From positions 1 through 51,775 of the forward strand of contig VGDY01000009.1 of the NCBI GenBank assembly GCA_016869555.1: a stretch of DNA of 51,775 nt. Reading direction: 5' to 3'. Every line of letters starts with the position of its first letter. The first letter of the stretch is position 1. The notes below the pieces were generated by a model. It was not told the origin of the DNA. It did no database searches and saw only the letters and a program-made list of their open reading frames with translations. This DNA comes from Alphaproteobacteria bacterium. GTDB lineage: Bacteria > Pseudomonadota > Alphaproteobacteria > Rhizobiales > Beijerinckiaceae. Below are positions 48,790 to 51,775 of this stretch, piece by piece. The position numbers and the translations under genes were made by a program.

Positions 48790-49194
48790 ATGAAGTCGCG
48801 GGATACGCTTGTCCGTCTGAAACGATTTCAGGCCGAGGAAAAACGCCGGCGTGTTGTCCAGCTCAACGGGATGATCGCCGAATTCACGCGCATGGCCAAT
48901 GAGCTTGAACGCGAAATCGGCCAGGAAGAGCGGCGCGCCAACATCAGCGACCTCAATCATTTCGCCTATCCGACCTACGCCCGCGCCGCGCGCGCGCGTC
49001 GCGAGAATATTCTCGCCTCGATCAACGAACTGCGCGGACAGCTCGATGAGGCGGAAGCGCAGTTCAAGGAAGCGAGCGAAGACCTCGCCAAGACTCAAAG
49101 CCAGGACGCGAGGGATCGCGGCGCCGAGCGGATGATCGACGTTGTCGCCGACCGCCGCCACGGCGAAAGGCCCGAAGCGCTTCGCCGCGCTTAA
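48790..49194 (+). CDS. fliJ: FliJ-like coiled-coil protein
   Basis: A 134-residue helical coiled-coil protein (charged heptads across about 1-115) with the segment NISDLNHFAYPTYARAARARRENI that marks the alphaproteobacterial FliJ-like family. FliJ helps deliver substrates to the flagellar export gate. No other flagellar gene lies here, but in related genomes this gene stands alone, often near ctrA. Its assignment as a true FliJ is by family resemblance. Confidence 0.78.
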   Translation: MKSRDTLVRLKRFQAEEKRRRVVQLNGMIAEFTRMANELEREIGQEERRANISDLNHFAYPTYARAARARRENILASINELRGQLDEAEAQFKEASEDLAKTQSQDARDRGAERMIDVVADRRHGERPEALRRA

Positions 49195-49769
49195 CGGCTA
49201 AACAGCCGCCAGCGCATCCTGCCGCGCGGCGGTCGCGCCCAGACTCCCACCGTTCTCCGACGAAGAGCGCTGACGTCGCCGCCTTTGGCGAGAGACGCTG
49301 CGATTGACGCTACGTCGAAGTCAAATCTTCGATGAAAACACGACGGGCCGGAACGCCCCGCCTCGACGAAGGCAAGTTCGAAGCGCGCGAGATCGACAAT
49401 CCAGACCGGCGCCAATTCGCGCCGCGCGAGACTCCTGTCGAGAAGGGCGACAAGCGCCGCCGCGTCTGCGCGGGTGCTTCCGTCTCTCGCGCGCCCGCGG
49501 ATCGCCTCCGCCAGAAGCGAGTCGAACCGGTCGCCCAATACGCGCGCGGTGAGCGGCAGCGCCCTGCGCGCATAGAGCGTGCGTTTGCCGATGAGGCTCC
49601 GCGCAAAGGCGTCCGTTTCACGCCGATCGAGCGACGCGAGGCGTTGCGCGTCATTAGCGCTTAGGCCGAAACGCGTCGAAACGGCGATCGGCGCCTCGAA
49701 GAATTCGCGGCGCAGATCATCATCGGTGAATAGGCGCGCCAACAGCGCCTGGGTTTCGGCTAACGCCAT
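49191..49769 (-). CDS. DUF2063/HvfC-like partner protein of the MNIO enzyme
   Basis: A 192-residue protein. The N-terminal part (MALAETQALLARLFTDDDLR, then RFGLSANDAQRLASLD and FARSLIGKRTLYARRALPLTARVLGDRF) has the all-helical form of the DUF2063 or putative DNA-binding partner proteins (HvfC/MbnC-type) encoded next to DUF692 enzymes. Such partners bring the substrate to the enzyme or complete it. The start at 49769 overlaps the DUF692 stop by 10 bases. I see no metal-binding motif of its own. Confidence 0.7.
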   Translation of the reverse strand: MALAETQALLARLFTDDDLRREFFEAPIAVSTRFGLSANDAQRLASLDRRETDAFARSLIGKRTLYARRALPLTARVLGDRFDSLLAEAIRGRARDGSTRADAAALVALLDRSLARRELAPVWIVDLARFELAFVEAGRSGPSCFHRRFDFDVASIAASLAKGGDVSALRRRTVGVWARPPRGRMRWRLFSR

Positions 49770-50596
49770 CGTCGATTTTCCACGAGCGTTGCGCGCGCCC
49801 GCTCCGCTTCCCCGATCAGTTCGGAGAACGGCGGAATATTTTCGTCGCGCTCGAGAAGGACGGCCTTGACCGGCGCGCGCGCCACGACGCGCTCGTAAAG
49901 CGTCCAAACCGCATCACTCGTCGGCGCGTCATGGCTGTCGATCAACAGGCCGTTGCGCGCGCGTCCGCCGGCGTAGTGAATTTGCACGAGCCGCTCCCAT
50001 GGCCAGCGCTCGAACTGCGCATCGAGATCGAAGCCGAAATTCATCGCATTGACATGCATATTGGCGACGTCGCACAGCCAGCCGCATCCTGTCGCTTCCA
50101 GCGTGCGCGTCAGGAATTCAGCCTCGTCCATTTCGGCGCCGGGAACGCGCACGACGCAGCTAATGTTTTCCAGAATCAGCGGCGTCTTGATGCGCCGGCG
50201 CAGATAATCGACATTGCGCGCGACTGCATCGATCGCCTCTTGTGTGTAGGGCAGCGACGCAAGATGGCCGATTCGAACGCCGCCGGCGCGCGTGAAGCAG
50301 AGATGTTCGCTCCACCAGGGCGGATCGATGCGCTCGATCAACGCGGCGATTTTACCGAGATAGCGCGGATCGACGCCGTCGGCGCCGCCGATCGAGAGAT
50401 CGAGACCATGCGCGACGAGCGGGAAGTGCGATCTTAGAAGGTCGAGTTCGTCGAGTTTCTCTCGCGTTGCGTCGAGATAGTGATCGGCGACGATCTCGAG
50501 AAAATCGATCCGGTCTCGATGAGCGAAGAGATCGGCGCGAAACTGCGGGCGATAGCCGATTCCGGAGCCTAGTGCCGGCGCGTCAATCGCCGCCAC
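49760..50596 (-). CDS. DUF692 multinuclear iron oxygenase (MNIO, MbnB/HvfB-type)
   Basis: A 278-residue TIM-barrel MNIO enzyme. Its apparent iron ligands are all in place: H63 (VAHGLDLS), H98 (SEHLCF), E143 (LENIS), D176 and H181 (CDVANMHVNA), H207 (QIHYAGG), D220 and H222 (DSHDAP) and E249 (LERDENIP). MNIO enzymes convert cysteines and other residues of peptide substrates, as in methanobactin (MbnB) or bufferins. The GTG at 50596 overlaps the stop of the upstream Cys-tailed membrane-protein gene; a start 9 bases earlier is possible. With its partner gene it forms a complete modification pair. Confidence 0.88.
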   Translation of the reverse strand: MAAIDAPALGSGIGYRPQFRADLFAHRDRIDFLEIVADHYLDATREKLDELDLLRSHFPLVAHGLDLSIGGADGVDPRYLGKIAALIERIDPPWWSEHLCFTRAGGVRIGHLASLPYTQEAIDAVARNVDYLRRRIKTPLILENISCVVRVPGAEMDEAEFLTRTLEATGCGWLCDVANMHVNAMNFGFDLDAQFERWPWERLVQIHYAGGRARNGLLIDSHDAPTSDAVWTLYERVVARAPVKAVLLERDENIPPFSELIGEAERARATLVENRRWR

Positions 50597-51500
50597 CGCT
50601 CGCACCGCCGTCGCCGCAACTGCCGCCGCAGCTCGACCCGCAATTGGAGCCCTGGCTTTGCGAGCCGCGGCTGAAGGTTTCGGCGAACATCGCCTCGGTC
50701 GTGCCCTTGAGCGGCGAGAATCCGTAAAGACCGATAAGAAACAGCGCCGCGCCATGGAACGCGCGCGCCTCCGGCCCCGGCGAGCCGATGTGCGCGACCG
50801 CCGCTTGCAAGCGCTCACCATAGGCGAGTCGCATCGCTTCGAGATAGGCGTGGCCGCGACGGCTCGCGTGGGTTCTGGTCATCACATAGGCGAGCGCGAA
50901 AAGCGCGGCGACGGAAGCGGCGGCGAGAAAGATGAGATAGGCGAGGTTCGCTGGACCCTTCGACCATTCGACGGCGATCTTCGCAAGCGCCACGCCAACG
51001 ATGATCAGCGTTCCGCCGATCTGCGCGCGCCGGCGCCAGATTTTCACCGACGCGGGTTTGATCAGCTCCTCCGCCGCGAGTTTGGCGCGGATCGGCGCGA
51101 GCTGCTCGAGAAGCCGTCGCCGCAGGCTGCGATCTTCAAACAGCACATGCGCCTTCGGCTTCGCCTGCGCGGCTTCAAGCAGGAGCGTCTCCATCGCATT
51201 GAGCTCGCCCGGTTGCGGCTGGCTTTCGGTGGGAATCACGTGATCCTTGGGCGCGAGAGCGATAAAGCCGCGCTGCGCAAGATCATAGATCAGCGTTCGG
51301 ATGACCTGATTGACGCCGCCCTGCAGGAAGGCGACTTCCATCGCATCCGGGTTTTGCGGCACAGGCGGCGGCGGACGCCGATCGGTGCGATCCGCGAGGC
51401 GGATGCAGAGATAAACGGCCGCCAGAACGATGATGACGACGAGCCCGAAGACATTGAGGAATTCCGGGCCGGGAAGATCGAGGATCGCAAAATTTTTCAC
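50583..51500 (-). CDS. TIGR04222-type membrane protein with Gly/Cys C-terminal tail
   Basis: A 305-residue protein with an N-terminal membrane helix (about 15-33), a winged-helix-like cytosolic region with QGGVNQVIRTLIYDLAQRGFIAL, and two central helices (about 168-210). It matches my recollection of TIGR04222, a domain found just before low-complexity tails. The tail is Gly/Ser-rich with C287, C291 and C295, each followed by Gly. GTG 51500 follows GAGG. The gene begins 9 bases after ctaA and overlaps the MNIO gene, making the tail a candidate substrate. Confidence 0.72.
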   Translation of the reverse strand: MKNFAILDLPGPEFLNVFGLVVIIVLAAVYLCIRLADRTDRRPPPPVPQNPDAMEVAFLQGGVNQVIRTLIYDLAQRGFIALAPKDHVIPTESQPQPGELNAMETLLLEAAQAKPKAHVLFEDRSLRRRLLEQLAPIRAKLAAEELIKPASVKIWRRRAQIGGTLIIVGVALAKIAVEWSKGPANLAYLIFLAAASVAALFALAYVMTRTHASRRGHAYLEAMRLAYGERLQAAVAHIGSPGPEARAFHGAALFLIGLYGFSPLKGTTEAMFAETFSRGSQSQGSNCGSSCGGSCGDGGASGGGD

Positions 51501-51509
51501 GCCGCCGCC

Positions 51510-51775
51510 TCAGTGCGTAACTACGTCTTGCGCAAGGCGTCGCGCCTGCAGCGTCGCCACCGCCAGAACCGCCATGCCGATCGCCTGATGCGCGAGCGCC
51601 AGGGCGATATGCGGCGCGCCGGCGAAGGGCGGCTCGACCAACACCAAGGTCGCGATTCCGAGCGCGATCTGCATCAGCACATGGCCGAACAGAATCGCGG
51701 CGCCGCGGCGCGCGCGTCCTTCCGCATTCATCCATGCGTCGATGAGATGCCCGAGCGCCAGGGCGAAAATCGCAT
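51510..51775 (-). CDS. ctaA: heme A synthase, C-terminal part (gene runs off window)
   Basis: The last 87 residues of a COX15/CtaA-type heme A synthase, which oxidises heme O to heme A for aa3 oxidases. The final helices (GAAILFGHVLMQIALGIATL and ALAHQAIGMAVLAVATLQA) are typical, including the heme-ligand histidine of ALAHQ. The 5' end lies beyond position 51775. It is the first visible member of the minus-strand run ctaA, Cys-tailed protein, MNIO and partner. Confidence 0.8.
   Translation of the reverse strand, partial: AIFALALGHLIDAWMNAEGRARRGAAILFGHVLMQIALGIATLVLVEPPFAGAPHIALALAHQAIGMAVLAVATLQARRLAQDVVTH

Follow-up and report, generated by a model that had tools for sequence, protein, structure and literature searches.

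We analysed contig VGDY01000009.1 of the alphaproteobacterial assembly GCA_016869555.1, the whole of which (51,775 nt) is the window considered here, and found in it a block of three minus-strand genes that encode a TIGR04222 membrane protein with a cysteine-bearing C-terminal tail, an enzyme of the MNIO (DUF692) family and a partner protein of this enzyme. The host genus is Methylocystis, and the membrane protein shows 98% identity to that of a Methylocystis bin. It is well supported that the block belongs to the published TIGR04222-MNIO-PME2 kind. We consider it probable that the block works as one unit, in which the partner presents the tail, the MNIO oxidises the tail cysteines, most plausibly to 5-thiooxazoles, and the modified tail binds copper or another soft metal. 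The parts of this proposal differ in strength: modification of the tail by the MNIO is likely from sequence comparison, thiooxazole is the best guess for the product by analogy, and copper as the metal would be no more than a guess, suggested by the relatives of the enzyme and by the host.

The membrane protein gene (50583..51500, minus strand) begins with GTG and encodes 305 aa; its product scores 85.6 bits on NCBIfam TIGR04222 (cut-off 43). Translation confirmed the Gly/Ser tail with cysteines at 287, 291 and 295 that had been proposed by a sequence-only reading of this DNA. The tail covers residues ~283–305 (50586..50654, minus strand), has the core C287-G-S-S-C291-G-G-S-C295-G (motif CGSSCGGSCG) and ends NCGSSCGGSCGDGGASGGGD. 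The MNIO gene (about 49760..50596, minus strand) and the gene of the 192-aa partner (49191..49769, minus strand) follow, so that a TIGR04222 domain over the cut-off, C-terminal tail Cys and an adjoining MNIO are all present in the window. The GTG start of the MNIO gene, picked by eye, is at 50596 or in frame at 50605, within the tail codons of the membrane protein gene; because of this position the genes of the block are probably translationally coupled. The description of three overlapping minus-strand genes in the sequence-only reading was correct, coordinates included.

The association was explored in 39 genomes placed in the window's genus. A TIGR04222 orthologue was found in 33 of the 39 and a cognate MNIO in 27, always beside the TIGR04222 gene. 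The cognate enzymes are 73–100% identical to the window enzyme (P0002), and all other matches reach at most 40%, save one 48-residue fragment at 44%. All 26 enzyme-linked tails that are readable in frame (18 distinct sequences) keep the motif C-G-x-S-C-x-x-x-C-G, with three Cys at four-residue spacing, even where the membrane proteins fall to 59% identity. All three Cys are invariant, as are the Gly residues that follow Cys 1 and Cys 3 and the Ser that precedes Cys 2, while S, T or M occurs at position 3 and positions 6–8 are variable. Since the three Cys are kept in every one of these tails while other tail residues vary, the conservation is more than chance. A loss of Cys in close homologues that retain the enzyme, which had been named beforehand as the observation that would speak against the tail as substrate, was therefore seen in none of the 26 tails.

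Six orthologues in the genus have no enzymes beside them. One of these (G419) is unreadable there, with X over the tail, and the five readable ones all lack the tail: they are 284 aa long, with no Cys or one Cys at the end (a single Cys near the end in two). A cognate MNIO is likewise absent from the six genomes that have no TIGR04222 gene. Completeness of the twelve enzyme-less genomes ranges from 59% to 100%; in the five tail-less orthologues the absence of the enzyme was read at the locus itself, which is bounded by a FliJ-like gene and PqqE and, in the four where the contig extends far enough, by CtaA at the opposite end. The block is present in strains such as Methylocystis rosea SV97 and M. 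silviterrae FS; four of the five tail-less relatives are metagenome bins according to their titles.

In a wider set that includes the genus, we compared the last 60 residues of 64 readable proteins, 32 MNIO-linked and 32 unlinked. Dropped before this count were L051 (G416, other frame), L031 (G087, tail-bearing frame not recovered), and L189 and L197 (contig ends); G419 was never included. The sample excludes Actinomycetota, and the large genome scans scored only the top 7 (or 11) candidates of a first look at each genome, so that TIGR04222 genes may have been missed. CGxSC was present in 29/32 linked tails and in 0/32 unlinked tails, whereas CGGCG was present in 12/32 and 22/32, respectively. 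As CGGCG is commoner in the unlinked tails, the terminal CGGCG is independent of the MNIO. Sister lineages have a terminal CGGCGG that the clade of the window has lost or keeps only in broken form, although it retains CGxSCxxxCG. This split, in which CGxSC goes with the enzyme and CGGCG does not, indicates which Cys deserve attention. When neighbourhoods of TIGR04222 homologues were compared, as had been suggested, the linkage recurred in the outgroup genera g162 and g176 and in a verrucomicrobial genome. CGxSC outside the genus was found in three of six linked proteins, namely two of g176 and the verrucomicrobial L146, whose CGSSC-bearing tail is accompanied by its own MNIO and a 99-aa partner.

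Antoine et al. (2025) collected more than 3,500 TIGR04222 proteins, described their Ser/Gly tails with interspersed Cys and proposed subsets of them as MNIO substrates (PMC12452194). According to that paper, over a quarter of TIGR04222 proteins have no C-proximal Cys, a third of TIGR04222 genomes have no MNIO, and the clusters contain no DUF2063 genes, with PME-type 2 proteins in at least 10%; the modification and role of the tail are called still to be investigated. The window shares with these clusters the signal-peptide-less membrane protein, the Ser/Gly tail with Cys, the adjoining MNIO, the PME-type 2 partner and the lack of DUF2063. It differs in coming from a methanotroph lineage, the published clusters being mostly from Actinomycetota, and in its specific CGxSC motif. 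The suggestion of the sequence-only reading that the tail represents a different architecture of cysteine modification is therefore not new, for the same hypothesis is in print (PMC12452194). What is new here is the genus-level co-variation, the linkage of CGxSC, the count of tails in genomes in which no MNIO was found, and the radical-SAM neighbours described below. In the open-access literature we found no paper pairing Methylocystis with MNIO. MNIO enzymes are known for the modification of peptides, and a membrane protein as their substrate has so far been a proposal, as far as the available text of PMC12452194 goes. Methylocystis offers a direct test of it in a copper-dependent methanotroph, with relatives that lack the enzyme-plus-tail segment at the same locus.

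The enzyme passes PF05114 with 286.1 bits (cut-off 25). Against the curated models it scored 249.6 bits on MNIO_BufB (NF050167, cut-off 310), 191.1 on HvfB (NF003818, cut-off 360) and 50.5 on MbnB (TIGR04159, cut-off 325). By sequence it is nearest BufB and then HvfB, and by the cut-off rule it is a member of no curated subfamily. The apparent iron ligands noticed at the outset held up: E33, H62, H97, E142, D175, N178, H206, D219, H221, E248 and D250 are identical throughout an alignment of 35 rows, in which P0002 stands a second time beside 34 distinct MNIO frames and Methylocystis cognates form the majority. N178, D219 and H221 align via 3bww with HvfB N175, D242 and H244, whose replacement is reported to abolish HvfB activity (PMC13419390); the other residues are putative ligands.

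The partner (P0003) had been called DUF2063-like. No Pfam family was matched at E 0.01, so the DUF2063 signature is absent, but the predicted fold is DUF2063-like: the structure model (mean pLDDT 84.8), a helical domain followed by a short mixed domain, matches TglI, the partner of the MNIO TglH (8hi7_A; Foldseek probability 1.00, E 3.1e-5). The match to MbnC (7dz9_C) was weak (probability 0.69, E 0.54), as was an NHLP-type match of 24.8 bits (cut-off 40). NGO1945 (3dee), the PME type structure in PMC12452194, was absent from the best 50 of 112 fold matches. The partner adjoins the MNIO in 27 of the 27 Methylocystis loci that have the enzyme, and judging from the model it is PME-type 2 in the sense of Antoine et al. 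(PMC12452194).

In the proposed mechanism, the TglI-like partner would bring the TIGR04222 tail to the MNIO, and the iron cluster of the enzyme would oxidise the Cys of C-G-x-S-C-x-x-x-C-G. The product would most plausibly be 5-thiooxazoles formed by four-electron oxidation, as with BufB/HvfB-type MNIOs, for which PMC12452194 and PMC13097082 report such products. The modified tail, still anchored in the membrane, would then bind a soft metal such as copper. The nearest characterised systems are the bufferins, oxazolins and fontiphorins (BufABC, HvfABC and FonABC, the captophorins), with which the window shares an MNIO close to BufB/HvfB, a Cys-rich substrate and an adjacent partner. However, the captophorin substrate is a Sec-exported peptide and the putative substrate here is a 305-aa membrane protein; in addition, the partner has no DUF2063 (PME-type 1) signature and the MNIO is under both the BufB and the HvfB cut-offs.

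It is possible, although we consider it unlikely, that the tail is modified in a different way, to a methanobactin-like oxazolone-thioamide, a cross-link or a two-electron product. The enzyme lies under the cut-off of every curated MNIO model matched and is thus a distinct subfamily, and the fold of its partner comes closest to TglI, which serves an enzyme with another product. In the core of methanobactin a Cys stands next to Gly or Ser, and we take the C-G-S-S-C of the tail to recall methanobactin-type cores. The methanobactin system (MbnABC) also consists of an MNIO with a partner, and the same genome has mbnB and mbnC. However, the window enzyme scores just 50.5 bits on the MbnB model, against 249.6 on BufB, and a methanobactin-type enzyme was rejected on these scores. 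Because the nearest curated models are BufB and HvfB and not MbnB, a thiooxazole is likelier than the methanobactin group.

Several observations weigh against modification of the tail by the neighbouring enzyme. No Lys stands beside any tail Cys, and Lys-Cys, Cys-Lys and EGKCG, the motifs of characterised thiooxazole substrates (PMC13097082), are all absent from the tail, which is a further difference from the captophorins. A periplasmic tail would require modification before export. In the 27th linked locus of the genus (G416, L051/L137) the Cys tail is out of frame with the TIGR04222 core. As many as 26 of the 29 CGxSC tails come from one genus, and three of the six linked proteins outside it (G454, G576 and G606) have no CGxSC. 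Outside the genus, 26 of 27 readable unlinked proteins have at least two tail Cys; 16 of these 26 are in genomes in which no PF05114 was found (some incomplete) and 10 in genomes with an MNIO elsewhere. Within the genus, the joint absence of tail and enzyme is confined to one clade (support 96/94), that is, to one event on the tree, and the contiguous tail end, MNIO and partner could have been removed by one deletion without functional coupling.

The wide occurrence of Cys-Gly tails means that the tail must have a use without an MNIO or with another enzyme, and the Cys tail as a general mark of MNIO substrates was rejected on the same 16 proteins. It would also be expected if the tail worked unmodified, in a thiol, metal or structural role common to TIGR04222 proteins, while the MNIO pair acted elsewhere in the cell. 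The higher frequency of terminal CGGCG in unlinked tails points the same way. We consider this explanation quite unlikely. No further precursor fits into the block, each of the genome's three remaining MNIOs has a separate locus (one with mbnB/mbnC, two by Cys-rich precursor-like genes), and within the genus the proximal motif is retained only where the enzyme is retained. The membrane-protein tail as substrate, as put forward in the sequence-only reading, is consequently upheld in part: enzyme-linked tails keep their Cys in 26/26 cases, enzyme-less orthologues lack the tail in 5/5 and no other precursor fits, while the Cys-Gly tail alone is no mark of an MNIO and the co-variation is a single event.

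The lack of room follows from the genes at the edges of the block. On one side is the 3' part of ctaA/COX15 (heme A synthase; 51510..51773, minus strand), which is cut by the contig end and scores 22.9 bits on PF02628 as a fragment, under the cut-off of 29.9; longer CtaA frames are found at the same place in relatives, and a CtaA relative is present in all 27 loci L035–L061. On the other side is a convergent FliJ-like gene (48790..49194, plus strand), named by resemblance only, without a family search. The minus-strand order is ctaA end, TIGR04222, MNIO and partner, each gene overlapping or nearly touching the next up to the FliJ-like gene, with a gap of 9 bp between the ctaA end and the TIGR04222 gene. 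A free precursor peptide beside the MNIO was rejected because these genes leave no space for one.

The FliJ-like gene is also the other edge of the variable segment, being common to all five enzyme-less Methylocystis loci and to the g176 outgroup loci L103–L105. In the outgroup genera g162 and g176, the MNIO, the partner and a Cys tail were found at 5/5 TIGR04222 loci over the cut-off. Because the outgroups carry enzyme, partner and tail and the FliJ neighbour is also found in g176, absence of the enzymes looks like the derived state, and the history of the enzyme-less clade is most simply explained by the loss of a single contiguous segment. Several independent co-losses of tail and enzymes were not found. 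We regard it as improbable that this loss was neutral and silent on function and the block a chance operon: the segment is contiguous, its loss is seen in one clade only and just 15–86 bp separate TIGR04222 from the FliJ-like gene in the five loci, but the genes are also associated in g162, in g176 and in a verrucomicrobial genome, and frequently so in the survey of Antoine et al. (PMC12452194), and the tail Cys are invariant in diverged linked members of the genus.

The structure model of the membrane protein (mean pLDDT 75.8) contains long membrane-type helices at 11–36, 150–178 and 186–208, and the tail is disordered-like, with pLDDT under 50 for 279–305. The stretch 247–265 is borderline by hydropathy (KD 1.13 vs 1.90–2.81 for the other three) and has only an 11-residue helix in the model. 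By the positive-inside rule, the loop 209–247 (6 K/R vs 3 D/E) favours the inside; residues 37–149 are balanced (15 vs 15), so the rule decides little on the topology. The tail would be periplasmic if the N-terminus is outside and 247–265 spans the membrane, and cytoplasmic, directly reachable by the MNIO, if 247–265 does not span. A periplasmic tail is published for other TIGR04222 members (PMC12452194). A PDB fold search with the model gave no match at E ≤ 0.001, and no plasmid relatives were found for the window protein (P0001).

A different enzyme class was found beside other tailed TIGR04222 genes. In G696 and G767, from two families of one order, a radical-SAM/SPASM gene lies 3 bp after the Cys-tailed TIGR04222 gene by mechanical frame calls (L195:4747-6726 and L196:4780-6957); no MNIO was found in either genome (G767 is 77% complete). 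The best NCBIfam model is SbtM (TIGR04082, "thio(seleno)oxazole modification"; 114.5 and 142.3 bits, cut-off 350), followed by the ACGX system (TIGR04340; 113.4 and 110.6 bits, cut-off 400). These maturases are the nearest models of the two enzymes, although the scores are far under the cut-offs and the class is unrelated to MNIO. The two enzymes are 66% identical and their membrane proteins 41%, and the upstream genes differ (DUF2807 vs UvrD). In this order, 6 of 48 genomes have TIGR04222: two with the radical-SAM gene, three with a contig end at or just past the gene, and G810, which has no Cys tail and no radical-SAM gene in the available stretch. The contigs L197, L198 and L200 of one order stop in or just past the Gly/Cys tail and so do not show which gene comes next.

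When 68 loci were searched with a profile built from the two enzymes, no further one turned up beside TIGR04222. Other matches occurred in eight loci at ≤59.4 bits; six of them are PqqE, among which those in L104 and L105 are PqqE-like fragments at a distance from the TIGR04222 gene. The open-access literature yielded no paper with TIGR04082, TIGR04340, "selenobiotic" or "ACGX system", and in PMC12452194 "radical SAM" appears in the references only, with no SPASM and no ACGX. No plasmid relatives were found for the G767 protein, and none of the 12 records for the G782 protein covers 80% of it. Two loci are few, but the pairing suggests that several kinds of Cys chemistry may be directed at the TIGR04222 tail. 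If the neighbours are real partners, two unrelated enzyme families act on one kind of tail. We tentatively raise the somewhat doubtful idea that the Cys-Gly tail is a general acceptor with exchanged Cys-modifying enzymes: MNIO plus PME2 in Methylocystis, where the target would be an added CGxSCxxxCG, and in the verrucomicrobium, where it would be a tail with CGSSC, and an SbtM/ACGX-like radical-SAM/SPASM enzyme in G696 and G767. If so, metal-binding tails that are anchored in the membrane and tailored by an enzyme would form a class of modified protein of their own, whichever enzyme makes them.

Some further observations concern the same genomes and proteins. In the G416 locus, the TIGR04222 core and the MNIO are read as one continuous frame of 570 aa; mutation and assembly error are both conceivable. 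One of the other MNIO loci of the window's genome (G000:C117, L034:4344-5730) has mbnB (441.3 bits) and mbnC (288.2 bits), and just upstream a short Cys-containing reading-frame end resembles a methanobactin precursor. The other two (G000:C4, L032, and G000:C8, L033) have BufB-type enzymes over the cut-off (377.1 and 371.9 bits) by Cys-containing precursor-like genes with signal-like starts, with a weak BufA2 match at C4 only (22.9 bits vs 60). Twenty genes near unlinked TIGR04222 genes were compared with Pfam in two sets of ten, of which 8/10 and 2/10 had no match; besides two radical-SAM genes and two IclR regulators, no family occurred repeatedly. The IclR-type regulators follow Cys-tailed TIGR04222 genes in two genomes of the verrucomicrobial scan (L185:6937-7734 and L187:4973-5776). 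Four unlinked TIGR04222 proteins (L097, L030, L185 and L193) are 485–497 aa long, with the domain beginning only at about residue 210–229, and the extra N-terminal region before it contains in some of them motifs like VDEVWHQHL or VDEAWHLHL.

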